Positions 3,857-30,888 of a DNA stretch of 32,228 nucleotides are shown piece after piece (position 1 is the stretch's first letter; each line of letters starts with the position of its first letter). Source of the stretch: Armatimonadota bacterium (GTDB taxonomy: Bacteria > Armatimonadota > Hebobacteria > CAIYQO01); assembly GCA_029553475.1 (NCBI GenBank), contig JAKPKV010000139.1:1-32228 (forward strand). Direction: 5' to 3'. The notes beneath the pieces are model-generated. The model worked only from the letters and a program-made list of their open reading frames with translations. It did no database searches and had not been told where the DNA came from. A program made the position numbers and the translations under genes.

Positions 3857-4639
3857 TCACTCGTCGCGCGCGAACTGGCATAACAGATACACCGTGCCGG
3901 CGGCCAGCGCCGCCGCGAGCACAATGCCGGCGATGGCGATGGAGACGCGGGAGAGGATGGCGATGACGATGATGGCGATCAACACGGGGATGGCGCTGCG
4001 GTAGAGCACCTCGCGCAGATGCGCCGGTGTGAAGAGCCAGACGAAAAACGAGGTGTTCAGCGAGGCGCCGCAGCGCGCGCAGGCGCGGCTGCCCCGGGGA
4101 TTCTCCGCGCGGCACTCGTAGCACCGCGCCACCGGCCCGCGCTCCGCGCGCGTTTTCGCCGCCACCAGTTTTTGCAGGCGATATCGCTCCTGCGTCGCGC
4201 GCTCCGGCGCCAGCTCAATCGCGGCCTGCATCTCCGCTATCGCCTCATCGTACTGTCCCAACTCCGCCAGCGACTCGGCGAGAAAGACGTGCGCGGCGGC
4301 GTTTTTGGGGTCGCGCGCGATGACGGCGCGGTATTGCAGCATGCGTTCGGCATGCAGGCGCTGTGCCAGGCGGCGCTCATGCGCGACGTGCAGCAGTTGC
4401 GCGCCCCCGGCGACGCCGAGCATCACCGCCACGTAGGCGATCATCGCCTGCTGCCCCGCCGCGGACCAGACGAGCGCGAAGAACAGGACTATCAGGAGGA
4501 TGAGCCCCAACGCCTGCGGCGCCGTGAGGAGTTTATCGGCCAGCCAGGCATTGAGGATGCGGACCACGACAAACGCGAAGGCGGCGCCGCCCAATATCCA
4601 GATGAACAGCGTGAACAGCGCCTCGGTCACTTCCGTCAA
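3857..4639 (-). CDS. Membrane protein with TPR repeats and a zinc ribbon
   Basis: Integral membrane protein of unknown function. From the chosen start it has two or three N-terminal hydrophobic segments (LFTLFIWILGG; ALGLILLIVLFFALVW; IAYVAVMLGVAGG), then a cytosolic-type helical region with about 1.5 TPR units (YRAVIARDPKNAAAHVFLAESLAELGQ...), a four-cysteine zinc ribbon (CYEC...CARC), and two C-terminal membrane helices. The start is a TTG at 4639, chosen because a strong GGAGGT (complement of 4646-4651) lies 6 nt upstream. The longer TTG start at 4657 lies upstream of that site. It is transcribed from its own promoter at 4684-4712 and is probably a scaffold or sensor; no enzyme signature is visible. 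Confidence 0.72.
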   Translation of the reverse strand: MTEVTEALFTLFIWILGGAAFAFVVVRILNAWLADKLLTAPQALGLILLIVLFFALVWSAAGQQAMIAYVAVMLGVAGGAQLLHVAHERRLAQRLHAERMLQYRAVIARDPKNAAAHVFLAESLAELGQYDEAIAEMQAAIELAPERATQERYRLQKLVAAKTRAERGPVARCYECRAENPRGSRACARCGASLNTSFFVWLFTPAHLREVLYRSAIPVLIAIIVIAILSRVSIAIAGIVLAAALAAGTVYLLCQFARDE

Positions 4640-4683
4640 GTCAACACCTCCGCGCAACGGTTGGGCAGGGGACGTACGTCTTC

Positions 4684-4712: not shown

Positions 4713-4784
4713 TCGAGCATCCCAGTTGGCGCGGACGGAAAGAATTTTCGATCAATGGCGTTTAATCCGCGCACGTGGGTGGAA

Positions 4785-4887
4785 TATAGAGAGTGGCCCA
4801 GTGCAAAGGGGGCAGTCGGGACTTCGGTCCCGGCTGGCACTGGGTACCTCCTGTAAAGGCCGCCGCGCGCACCGCGCGGCGGCCTTT
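4785..4887 (+). ncRNA. candidate structured small RNA: pseudoknot followed by terminator hairpin
   Basis: No gene covers 4713-4900. On the plus strand a possible -10 (TATAGA, 4785-4790) is followed, one promoter-to-start distance later, by a compact fold. The outer stem CCCAGTGC (4797-4804) pairs with GCACTGGG (4837-4844). Inside it is a 9-bp hairpin (4814-4822 with 4827-4835) closed by a UUCG tetraloop. The bulge AGGGGG (4807-4812) can pair with CCTCCT (4847-4852) just outside the stem, forming a pseudoknot. A perfect 15-bp hairpin (4855-4887) follows. Both neighbouring genes lie on the minus strand, so an RNA here would be free-standing. It does not match the 6S, SRP or common riboswitch motifs I know. 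The -35 is weak; transcription is an inference. Confidence 0.35.
4855..4887. terminator. 15-bp perfect hairpin, likely bidirectional terminator
   Basis: Arms 4855-4869 and 4873-4887 are exact reverse complements around a CAC loop. The arms end in AAA/TTT, so either strand gives a GC-rich stem followed by T residues. It lies 14 bp downstream of the L,D-transpeptidase stop codon (minus strand) and also ends the candidate plus-strand RNA. Confidence 0.6.
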
Positions 4888-4900
4888 GGGTTTGGTCGGT

Positions 4901-6049
4901 TCACGGCAGCGACAGGCGAATGCCGCCCGGCGAATATTCGATGCTGCCGCCCAGTGCCTCCATCACGGAACGTACCGACACGAACAGGGTGTTCAACGCG
5001 ATAAATGCCTCGTCCCCCGCGGTCACGGCCACTTCCCGTGATGCATGAGTGAGATAGGCCGTCTCTGTGCCGGCATCCCAGCGAACGGCGGCGCGCAGGT
5101 AGCCTGCAAGCTGCCGGACGGGCAGGTAACTGCGCCCGCCCCGCAGCGTGGGTCCCACTTCCCCGGCGACCGGCGTGCCCTGCACTTTTATCGCCATCCG
5201 CGACCCGAGAATGGGCCGGGCGACACCGTCAGCGCGCCGTATCGCCTGCGCCAATTCTTCCCGGGTGAGCGCCTCCGCCAGACCGTACCCGCGCAGGTGC
5301 CGCTGCACGCGGGCGATGTCGTTCGTCGCGCGCCGATAGACGTCGGGAAACACCGCCAGATAGACGATGCCGTCCTCGTGCCCGACGGCCACCGTCTCAT
5401 AGGTGATGAGCACGGGGTCCCCGACGGCGACGTGCGCGTAGAGGGTACGAATGTGCGCCGGGAAGAGGCGGATACAGCCGTGGCTGACCGTGCGCCCAAT
5501 GGTGCGAGGGTCATTGGTCCCGTGGATGCCGTACCCCGGACGGCTCAGGCCAATCCAACGGTCGCCCAACGGGTTGCTCGGTCCCGGCGGCACCACGCCG
5601 CCGCCCGCCCAGGAGGGCCGGTACCAGGAGGGATTCACCACCTTCGTCTGCACTTGCAGGCGGCCGATCGGCGTGTTCCAGCGCTCGGCGATGCGGCCGA
5701 TGGAGACCGGATAATGCGCGGCGACGCGGTTATCCACCCACCGGTAGAGCATCAGCTCCGGTACATTCAGCACCACGCCATCCGACAGGTGGTTGATCGC
5801 AATGCGCCGGCCTGGCAACAGCGCGTCGCCGGAGAGCCCGCCGGGATTCGCGCGCGTCAGATGCTGATACCCGAGATGCTCCCGGATGCCGAGATCCACC
5901 CAAGTGCGCCCGCGTGGCCAGGGCATCGTCGTATTCTCTCCGAAGCTGATCGGCAGCCGCGCCACGCGCTCGCGCCATGTCGTCTGCGCGTGCGTCGGCA
6001 GCGCTGACAGCATCAGCAGGCAGAGTGCCACAGCGGTCGGGCCTCGCAT
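4901..6049 (-). CDS. L,D-transpeptidase (YkuD) with LysM-like and copper-amine-oxidase-like domains
   Basis: Exported enzyme that forms 3-3 peptidoglycan cross-links or attaches proteins to peptidoglycan. The signal peptide (residues 1-22) is followed by a LysM-like segment (YQHLTRANPG...LLPGRRI, about 61-83). The YkuD catalytic domain (about 93-220) carries HGTNDP (His176) and SHGC (189-192; catalytic Cys192) followed by IRL. The last ~95 residues (PVAGEVGPTLRGGRSYLPVRQLAGYL...) match the copper amine oxidase N-terminal-like cell-surface domain. ATG 6049 is chosen over the in-frame GTG at 6055 because AGGAGG (complement of 6058-6063) is 8 nt from the ATG but only 2 nt from the GTG. It may share a transcript with the upstream KaiC-like gene, although hairpins lie between them. 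Confidence 0.9.
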   Translation of the reverse strand: MRGPTAVALCLLMLSALPTHAQTTWRERVARLPISFGENTTMPWPRGRTWVDLGIREHLGYQHLTRANPGGLSGDALLPGRRIAINHLSDGVVLNVPELMLYRWVDNRVAAHYPVSIGRIAERWNTPIGRLQVQTKVVNPSWYRPSWAGGGVVPPGPSNPLGDRWIGLSRPGYGIHGTNDPRTIGRTVSHGCIRLFPAHIRTLYAHVAVGDPVLITYETVAVGHEDGIVYLAVFPDVYRRATNDIARVQRHLRGYGLAEALTREELAQAIRRADGVARPILGSRMAIKVQGTPVAGEVGPTLRGGRSYLPVRQLAGYLRAAVRWDAGTETAYLTHASREVAVTAGDEAFIALNTLFVSVRSVMEALGGSIEYSPGGIRLSLP

Positions 6050-6074
6050 GATCACGTCCTCCTGCGTACAACCT

Positions 6075-6187: not shown

Positions 6188-7612
6188 TCAGTATTCCAGG
6201 ATGCGCAGATACGGCGGGCTGCTCGTCTCCACGAAGCCGTGCACCAGGGTGCGCGCCGCGTTCAGGGTTTTGAGCACCTGGATATATTCGTAATTGCCTT
6301 CCCGCCAGATGCGCACCAGGCCATCGGCCTCCGAGCGGAGTTTCTCCCGCGCGGAGGCGGGCACGGCATTCGGATTCAGGAAGCCCAGACAGACGCCGCC
6401 ATACTGCTGGATCATATCGAGCGCCGGCGCCAGCGTGGCGAACACGTCCTCCTCATCCATCGCGGTAATCAGCCGCGTGAGATCGAGGAACAGGCGACCG
6501 CGCTTCAAGCGCGTCGTCGCCTGAAATGCCTCATCGAGCTGCGCCAGCGCGCGCGGTGCCCCGACGGTCATGTCGTCCCAGATATCGTCCTCCGCGAGGG
6601 GATCCGCTCCGGCGCCGGCTTCGTCGGAGACAGTGAACAGGCGCAACGCGTCGGTCGCGATGCCCTGGTCGAAATCCTCCTGCATGCCGTAATTCATCGC
6701 GAGCTGCCGCAGCCGGTCCTGGCGCGTCCCGGTGGTGGTCACCTCGAAGAGGTGATCCTCCGCGCGCAGGGTTTCGCGCATGAAGTTCACCTCGAAGATC
6801 TCCTGGTGAAGTTCCGAGGACACTTCGAAGAGATAGAACGCGCCATAGGGGATGCCGCCGCCGATCAGCGTGTCCAATTCCGGCACGCCGAGTGAAATCG
6901 CCTCCTGATAGCGGAATTGCGGCTCCTGGAAGGGGGGCACAATCTCCAGCCCCTGCTCGCTGAAGAAGAACAGCGATTTCGCCGGCACATGGCGCGAGCC
7001 GCGGCTCTTCAGCACTTCGATGAACCGCATGCGCTGGTTGTTGATGCGGTCCATCGACAGGTAGATGACCACATCCGCGGTGTATTCTTCGGCGACGGTG
7101 CCGGTCACTTCCCCTTCCATCAGCTCGCGCAGCAGCAGCGGCGTCAAGCCTTCCCGTTTGAGCGCGTTGATCAGGCTGTAGATGATCTTGCGCAGCTCGC
7201 CGGGGTTGTCCGCCAGCCGCTGGAAATGCGTCAGGCTGTCCACCACCACCCGCCGCGCGCCGATCTCGCGGATCATCTCCGGGAAGATGCCCTCGTGGCG
7301 TTTGATGTCCTGGTACATCAGGTCGGGGGAGGTGAAGAGCACCTTCAGTTTGTCCTCTTCCTCCAGCGCCCGAAAATCCCAGCCGAAATTCATCGCGTCG
7401 CGATAAATCTGCTGCGGGAACTCTTCAAAGGTGATGAAAAATCCCGGTTCGTCATACCGCAAGATGCCTTCGTAGAGAAATTGCATGCCAAGCGTGGACT
7501 TGCCGGAGCCCGGGGCGCCGGCCACCAGCACGGCATCGCCCTCAAGCAGGCCGCCATGCAGCAGGTTATCCAGTCCGGGCACACCGGTCGGAATGCGTTG
7601 CTGAACGTGCAT
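6188..7612 (-). CDS. KaiC/RAD55-like RecA-superfamily ATPase with degenerate second domain
   Basis: Cytosolic P-loop ATPase of the KaiC-like (RAD55) group, typically used in signalling rather than recombination. The first domain has the family opening TGVPGLDNLLHGG, Walker A GAPGSGKST (32-40), the catalytic Glu pair in FITFEEF (63-64) and Walker B VVVDS (Asp125). A second copy starts near residue 240 with SLGVPELDTLIGGGIP but has no P-loop where Walker A is expected (FYLFEVSSELHQ), so it is probably non-catalytic. ATG 7612 is preferred over GTG 7618 because GAGGAG sits 5 nt upstream of the ATG and overlaps the GTG region. It follows the MerR-type gene by 50 nt on the same strand, suggesting an operon and a shared regulatory role. 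Confidence 0.85.
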   Translation of the reverse strand: MHVQQRIPTGVPGLDNLLHGGLLEGDAVLVAGAPGSGKSTLGMQFLYEGILRYDEPGFFITFEEFPQQIYRDAMNFGWDFRALEEEDKLKVLFTSPDLMYQDIKRHEGIFPEMIREIGARRVVVDSLTHFQRLADNPGELRKIIYSLINALKREGLTPLLLRELMEGEVTGTVAEEYTADVVIYLSMDRINNQRMRFIEVLKSRGSRHVPAKSLFFFSEQGLEIVPPFQEPQFRYQEAISLGVPELDTLIGGGIPYGAFYLFEVSSELHQEIFEVNFMRETLRAEDHLFEVTTTGTRQDRLRQLAMNYGMQEDFDQGIATDALRLFTVSDEAGAGADPLAEDDIWDDMTVGAPRALAQLDEAFQATTRLKRGRLFLDLTRLITAMDEEDVFATLAPALDMIQQYGGVCLGFLNPNAVPASAREKLRSEADGLVRIWREGNYEYIQVLKTLNAARTLVHGFVETSSPPYLRILEY

Positions 7613-7662
7613 GATCACTCCTCACAATTTGAACTCAAGTATGATGTGGAAGGGGGGAGATG

Positions 7663-8307
7663 CTAACGCCGTTGGGGGATATAGCGGTAGACATCCGACC
7701 CCGGATAACTGATTTTCTGGATGAAATGCTTCTGCTCCAACAGTTGCAGCTCACGTTCCACCTCGCCCATTTCGCGGCCGAGCCGGATGGCGATCTGCCG
7801 TGCGGTATTCACCGTATACGGGTTCGCTTCAAAGAACGAGATCAGCCGGTCCACGCCGCTCAAAGACGCCGCCGCGCCTTGCAGCGTGCCGCTCACGCGG
7901 AAGGTGCGGATTTCCCGGCGTACCTTATCCGCCAGGCCCTGCAACTGGTTGGCCTGCGTGAGCACATATTGCTCGAGCTCCGCGTCCGGCATCAGATCAA
8001 TGCGCTTGCGCTCCTGATCGCGCCGCCGGATGAACCCATCCGCCTCTGCGACCGCGCCCTCCAGGCTGAATCCCTGGTCGAGCGCCTGCTTGATCAGCGC
8101 CACCTTCTCCAGCGCCGCGTAGTCGTAACACCGGTTTTTTTCCTCATCCACGGGGGTGATAATCCCCTTGTCGGTCCAATAGGATAACTGGCGAATCGAA
8201 ACATTGCACAGCGAGGCCGCCTGTCCGATCCCTAACCGCAGGCGGGAGACCAGATCGTGGATGTCAACGGGACGCAATCCGATTCGTTTCTTATCCGCAC
8301 CAGCCAT
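7663..8307 (-). CDS. MerR-family transcriptional regulator with C-terminal winged-helix-like domain
   Basis: DNA-binding regulator. An N-terminal MerR helix-turn-helix (about 24-90) shows GIGQAASLCNVSIRQLSYWTDKG, then the wing and the RCYDYAALEKVALIKQAL segment. A helical linker (about 95-140) follows. The last 65 residues (PYTVNTARQIAIRLGRE...VERELQLLEQKHFI) look like a second winged helix, unusual for MerR proteins, whose C-terminus normally binds an effector or dimerises. No effector cysteines are apparent. A good ribosome-binding site (GGGAGAG) precedes ATG 8307. It is first in a two-gene unit with the KaiC-like ATPase and diverges from ribF; it may control that unit from the 358-bp intergenic region. 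Confidence 0.85.
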   Translation of the reverse strand: MAGADKKRIGLRPVDIHDLVSRLRLGIGQAASLCNVSIRQLSYWTDKGIITPVDEEKNRCYDYAALEKVALIKQALDQGFSLEGAVAEADGFIRRRDQERKRIDLMPDAELEQYVLTQANQLQGLADKVRREIRTFRVSGTLQGAAASLSGVDRLISFFEANPYTVNTARQIAIRLGREMGEVERELQLLEQKHFIQKISYPGSDVYRYIPQRR

Positions 8308-9571: not shown

Positions 9572-10340
9572 GCGCCGGCCATGATGATGGGCCGCGCCGC
9601 CGAAAAAATGGGCCAAACAGCCCGCCGCGGCGGCAGGGGGCAGGGTCGCGGCCGCGAAGATTTTATTGAGGCGCGCATTCTCGCTCCGCGGGGAGAGGGA
9701 GGGCATAGGCGTCGTCAGCGCGTCAGCGCGCGTTTCGTCCTCGTGCTCGTACTCGTGCTCGAAATCAGATACGGGCGGACAGGATGTCCGCGCTCCGGTG
9801 GGCGCTCCGATGGGCACGACTCATACTCGTACTCGTACTCGTAGTCGTAGTCATAATCGAATACGGGCTTCGATGCTTCACAGCGTATCTGATCGCCAGG
9901 CGCCGGACTGCCCGACGCGCGGTAACTCAGCGCCCCGCTTCAGCATAACTGTAGCGGGATGTACGATGTGTAGCAAACCAGCCCAGGGTAGTCCGCGCCC
10001 TCCGCGGCGCGTGGTGACGCATTGCTGCCTCGTGCCCGATGACGGTGGTGTCGGACACGGGTGCGCATGTTGGTCACACGCGCCGCTACAGAGCACGGTG
10101 CAACGTGACAACCCGCTACACACAACCGTTTAGAGTACGACTACGAGTACGAGCCGTGCCCCGTCGGAGCGCCCATCGGAGCGCGGACATCCTGTCCGCC
10201 CGTAGCGGAGTACGACTACGAGTACGACTACGACTACGAGTATGAAGGGTACGCGAGCCCTCTCGTGACGCCTCTGCGGGGTGTTGGGGAGGGATCGTGA
10301 CGCGCGCAATGCGCGCATCCGCCAACGGGGAGCACCTGTC
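9572..10340. repeat. gene-free composite repeat island with large inverted duplication
   Basis: No credible gene in 769 bp. Two arms, 9736-9860 and 10134-10250, are imperfect reverse complements separated by 273 bp. Each arm has a 42-bp core (9773-9814 and 10160-10201, two mismatches) containing the palindrome CGGACA-GGA-TGTCCG, flanked by hexameric tracts built on TCGTAC/TCGTAG. The spacer contains further related words (GTAGCGGGATGT near 9953 and, inverted, ACCCGCTACA at 10111-10120). This looks like nested REP/MITE-like elements. The ORFs crossing it translate into Ser/Arg-rich repeats and are rejected. Confidence 0.8.
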
Positions 10341-30802: not shown

Positions 30803-30888
30803 TGGTGCCGAAGAGAGGAGTCGAACCTCCACACCCGTACGGGTACTTGGTCCTGAACCAAGCGCGTCTGCCATTCCGCCACTTCGGC
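30803..30888 (-). tRNA. tRNA-Leu(CAG)
   Basis: 86-nt tRNA with encoded CCA. Acceptor stem GCCGAAG pairs with CTTCGGC; D-arm GCGGAATGGCAGACGC; anticodon stem CTTGG/CCAAG with loop TTCAGGA (anticodon CAG, plus-strand 30853-30855); long variable arm (TACCCGTACGGGT) typical of class II tRNAs; T-arm with GGTTCGACTCC. The long variable arm and CAG anticodon identify leucine. Confidence 0.97.

Follow-up and report, generated by a model that had tools for sequence, protein, structure and literature searches.

From the comparison of three related genomes, we propose that a stretch between two genes of an Armatimonadota genome holds a real and new RNA locus that is extremely conserved, structured and narrowly distributed. 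The window, by which we mean the whole stretch of DNA analysed (32,228 nt, contig JAKPKV010000139.1), belongs to the genome called G000 here; the other two carriers, both labelled Armatimonadetes MAGs, are G001 of the same genus (contig JAKIYB010000041.1) and G002 of another genus in the same Armatimonadota family (contig JAGUZN010000033.1). The core locus is single copy in G000, where it is flanked by a TPR gene (3857-4657) and a YkuD L,D-transpeptidase gene (4901-6055), both on the minus strand as the original prediction had stated. An RNA of about 95 nt, with ends near 4794 and 4890, would be transcribed from the plus strand. Our preferred reading, held tentatively and at a little under an even chance, is that it is a trans-acting small RNA (sRNA) in which a CCUCCU seed pairs with ribosome-binding sites and an internal AGGGGG can reversibly mask that seed.

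The conserved core spans 59 nt of the plus strand (TGGCCC...CCTCCT, 4794-4852). Its outer stem P1, predicted earlier and confirmed by direct reading of the sequence, joins CCCAGTGC (4797-4804) to GCACTGGG (4837-4844) in 8 bp, with a possible extra pair G4796-U4845. P2, the UUCG-capped inner hairpin (4813-4836; arms 4813-4822/4827-4836), is also present and has 10 bp, including one U-G, below a cUUCGg loop, rather than the 9 bp first counted. AGGGGG (4807-4812) is single-stranded in the nested fold and is a possible masking partner of CCTCCT (4847-4852), the anti-Shine-Dalgarno sequence, which is invariant in the three genomes and which we propose to be a seed and/or a pseudoknot strand; both motifs lie where they had been placed and can form six pairs (A-U, four G-C and one G-U). 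The terminator hairpin (4855-4887, plus strand) pairs AAAGGCCGCCGCGCG (4855-4869) with CGCGCGGCGGCCTTT (4873-4887) in the 15 perfect base pairs described before, around a CAC loop. Its U-tract is weak in G000. The YkuD gene runs towards the hairpin and ends with its stop codon 13 nt before it, so that the hairpin probably works in both directions.

The case for an RNA rests, in our judgement, on the contrast in conservation between the core and its surroundings. In a search of the phylum, only G001 and G002 carry the RNA; they are the only other members of the family among the genomes searched, and their wider locus is 88% and 87% identical, respectively. Core identity to G000 is 57/59 in G001 and 58/59 in G002, whereas the shared coding DNA of neighbouring genes is 71-88% identical overall (about 80-88% with G001 and 73-77% with G002); at 73.3% identity, 58/59 matches would arise with a binomial probability of 2.5e-7. 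Upstream of the core, G000 and G002 have no clear similarity, the flanks having diverged. Within the core only positions 4820 and 4829 vary, and they pair with each other in P2, as G-C, A-U or G-U. This covariation is suggestive; with three sequences it is not statistically compelling, being reached in 326/500 shuffles. The terminator hairpin has been rebuilt with different bases, having 15 pairs in G000 and 14 in each of G001 and G002. Loss of the pairings in relatives had been named as a ground for rejecting the fold, and both G001 and G002 keep them. Judged on these three sequences, the level of conservation is that usual for a housekeeping RNA, inside a narrow family.

These data also bear on the idea that the locus is a bidirectional terminator or a DNA element, such as a protein-binding inverted repeat, serving convergent genes without an independent RNA function. 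The hairpin is close to the YkuD stop codon in G000, in G002 it follows the KaiC stop codon at a distance of a few tens of bases, and P1 is itself an inverted repeat. However, termination alone would not call for an adjoining run of 59 bases that hardly change, and it is the core that stays constant and the terminator hairpin that varies; moreover, there is one copy in the genome of G000, and the wobble pairs favour an RNA made from one strand. We therefore regard this idea as quite improbable.

The plus-strand fold has a predicted energy of -72.6 kcal/mol (z of -8.05 against 200 shuffles) and the minus-strand fold -64.1 kcal/mol (z of -5.9 against shuffles), and in all three genomes the plus fold is better, by 6.5-10.5 kcal/mol. 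The minus fold is the weaker because the invariant U-G pair of P2 and the G-U pair of G002 become mismatches there. A UUCG loop closed by a C-G pair is the stable form of this tetraloop, and on the plus strand the loop is closed by C-G; together with the G-U wobbles, this indicates that the plus strand is the RNA. It is still conceivable that the minus strand is the functional one: AGGAGG (4852-4847) is followed six bases on by a GTG start (4840-4838) and a short open reading frame (VPAGTEVPTAPFALGH...), with ideal ribosome-binding-site spacing in all three genomes, and both variable core sites are synonymous in its frame, as read by eye. Against this, the frames differ in length (about 43, 17 and 55 codons, by eye) and any similarity between them ends at residue 16; bases are conserved at every codon position; pairs are lost from the minus fold in each of the three genomes; and one pair covaries exactly as an RNA would. 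A functional minus strand thus seems to us very unlikely.

The gene neighbourhood indicates that the RNA is free-standing. In both G000 and G001 it lies between a TPR gene that points away from it and a YkuD gene that points towards it. Neither gene adjoins the RNA in G002, where a MerR-KaiC pair converges on it directly and the gene upstream appears, by eye, to be URO-D-like. Since the flanking genes of G002 differ, no fixed plus-strand gene follows the RNA, which argues against cis-regulation of one fixed downstream gene and bears out the earlier view that a plus-strand RNA would serve no adjacent gene. The genes for the MerR-type regulator and the KaiC-like ATPase (6188-8307 in the window, minus strand) are kept as a pair in G000, G001 and G002, and as the nearest conserved neighbours of the RNA they could speak for cis antisense regulation of the adjoining TPR or KaiC genes. 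However, the RNA overlaps none of them; in G000 and G001 the YkuD gene, 1.2 kb long, stands between it and KaiC, and in G002 there is no TPR gene next to it. Of all the readings considered, we find this one the hardest to credit. Elsewhere in the window, a dispersed palindromic repeat, GGGCGGACAGGATGTCCGCGCTCC, occurs at 9773-9796 (plus) and 10178-10201 (minus). It has about 59 copies in G000, 2 in G001, 0 in G002 and 0 in the control; its arms vary together (GGACAGGATGTCC, GGGCAGGATGCCC, GGCCAGGATGGCC), and runs of CGTACT-type hexamers adjoin it.

A candidate promoter lies at 4760-4793 on the plus strand, with AT-rich sequence upstream. The predicted -10 element, TATAGA, occupies 4785-4790 and is separated by 4 nt from the conserved GGCCC; G001 has TATTAT at the same distance, so that TATNNN is kept, and the element is less clear in G002. 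The -35 element is weak or unrecognised: no clear one was found upstream of TATAGA, where the 17-bp spacing offers only TTAATC, and our promoter scan of the window listed no plus-strand site for the RNA. By consensus the promoter is weak, and it is weaker than that of the TPR gene, which is near consensus (TTGACA-17-TATAGT, 4712-4684, minus strand) and is visible in G001 too.

We suggest a plausible mechanism for the trans-acting sRNA. The rigid rod of P1 and P2 would place the internal strand AAAGGGGG beside the 3' tail UACCUCCU. The tail would mimic the 3' end of 16S rRNA and pair with AGGAGG-type ribosome-binding sites, blocking initiation, while AGGGGG would compete for the tail and make pairing less promiscuous, as an off state or a specificity filter; the 3' terminator hairpin would end and stabilise the RNA. 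We favour this reading because CCUCCU is the anti-Shine-Dalgarno sequence. In the window, GGAGG or AGGAG precedes a possible start in many genes, and such sites count in its favour. The predicted pairing of the tail is -13.2 kcal/mol with a standard ribosome-binding site versus -8.5 kcal/mol with the internal AGGGGG. CCUCCU is unpaired in the fold of the 59-nt core alone. In the nested fold the tail stays mostly unpaired in G000, but if the modelled transcript extends beyond the terminator hairpin, about half of the tail is predicted to be paired in G001 and most of it in G002; this weighs against our reading, as does a promoter that is weak by consensus and unclear in G002. Also on that side, a scan for targets with the extended seed complement TTYAYAGGAGGTA, allowing at most one mismatch, gave no conserved target: G000 had no further match, and in G001 and G002 the matches did not exceed those of the control. 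The segment GGCUGG...ACCUCCU resembles the 3' end of 16S rRNA, which we take to be a chance likeness; the comparison is with the general 16S sequence, not this organism's own, and a search for 16S rRNA in the three assemblies found none.

The invariance of both stems exceeds what a simple seed-bearing sRNA would need and hints at a bound protein. This leads to the main rival, a permanent pseudoknot or protein-bound fold: a compact protein- or ligand-binding noncoding RNA in which AGGGGG and CCUCCU would be permanently paired and the folded surface, not a seed, would be functional. P1, P2, the bulge and the tail are almost all invariant, as for a tertiary fold or a protein site; six-pair complementarity between bulge and tail arises in 1.2-2.3% of random 8-mer pairs, which is mildly unexpected on its own; and a 2-nt L1 (AA) suits the crossing of a 6-bp deep groove. 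On the other hand, by standard H-type geometry the 2-nt linker UA (4845-4846) would be sterically tight for bridging the 8-bp P1, where a longer loop would be usual; the helix contains a central G-U pair where a CCCCC strand would have paired better; and CCTCCT can also be accounted for naturally, as an anti-Shine-Dalgarno seed. The six pairs are possible in all three genomes and never vary, so covariation speaks neither for nor against them. We consider this rival somewhat unlikely, if clearly less so than the others. A further, improbable reading is a new kind of self-masked ribosome mimic, in which CCUCCU and its own Shine-Dalgarno-like lock AGGGGG would form a pseudoknot switching between a closed state and an open one that binds mRNA or the ribosome. 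Thus, of the free-standing pseudoknotted RNA originally predicted, the free-standing plus-strand structured RNA with its terminator is well supported, by conservation amid diverged flanks, the covarying P2 pair, the rebuilt terminator, the wobbles and the absence of an Rfam match, while the pseudoknot, whose six pairs are all invariant, is hypothetical.

Searches beyond the family agree with its narrow distribution. At the gathering cut-off of Rfam 15 the RNA matched no family, in line with the first impression that it belonged to no known one; the best sub-threshold scores against their cut-offs, in bits, were HTT-AS1_2 (21.9/100), asX1 (16.8/70) and P6 (15.3/50). The sole Rfam match in the window was a tRNA, a tRNA-Leu (CAG) at 30803-30888 on the minus strand. 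A covariance-model search of 291 genomes of the phylum gave no further convincing homologue. BLAST and covariance matches at about 33 bits or below, among 60 to 291 relatives, lacked AAAGGGGG and CCUCCU and were rejected by eye and by reading frame, many of them being terminator-like or inside long open frames. A pattern scan of GTDB 220 (84,980 species) gave 12 matches, of which only those in G001 and G002 fold as the model does; because exact bulge and tail motifs were required, the scan could have passed over more divergent members elsewhere. No homologue turned up in viral contigs, plasmids or phages, the plasmid and phage matches covering the terminator only, and our search of the literature on noncoding or small RNAs in Armatimonadetes found nothing relevant. 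The region 3' of the KaiC gene, a gene found in 14/14 class genomes searched, had no related RNA in 11 other class members. At loci L095-L098 (family f2, same class), that region has a conserved promoter, TTGACTTTTG-N-TAGAAT, then a leader with invariant GGCGGCCTGTCCG and GGGCCGTT that has no Rfam match, and a gene that by eye is of peptidyl-prolyl isomerase type.

Taken together, the Armatimonadota RNA would represent a new family within a known kind of RNA, tied to no fixed gene and matching no Rfam model. The HDV-like layout is an H-type pseudoknot with an inserted hairpin, in the strand order P1a, pk-a, hairpin, P1b, pk-b. Our RNA shares this order and was considered as an HDV-like ribozyme for that reason, but it has no P4 or P1.1 and matched no Rfam ribozyme or riboswitch, so this assignment was dropped; its 2-nt linker is a further difference. 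The C-rich sRNAs of Bacillota (RsaE/RoxS, FsrA, LhrC) have a structured body, a single-stranded C-rich seed and a Rho-independent terminator, and target ribosome-binding sites. By analogy, the order of hairpin, C-rich tract and terminator seen here would be typical of their layout, although here the seed is CCUCCU beside an internal G-rich complement and there is no Rfam match. The alpha-r14 sRNAs of Rhizobiales (NfeR1; SmelA075) are trans-acting and carry an ultraconserved anti-Shine-Dalgarno CCUCC, unpaired for pairing with ribosome-binding sites, in three hairpins that each bear CCUCCUCCC in the loop on diverged stems (PMC10746234, PMC3927594). The Armatimonadota RNA has a conserved CCUCC-type motif as well, likewise predicted to pair with ribosome-binding sites; unlike alpha-r14, it has a single CCUCCU, placed in a linker, and an AGGGGG partner within the RNA; its stems do not vary, and its host belongs to another phylum. 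With one hairpin body and CCUCCU outside its loops, it lacks the three CCUCCUCCC-looped hairpins of that family, so it is no member and would at best work like alpha-r14. Should CCUCCU prove to be its working part, anti-Shine-Dalgarno sRNAs would extend to a phylum far removed from Rhizobiales, and the internal lock could explain how a promiscuous seed is restrained.
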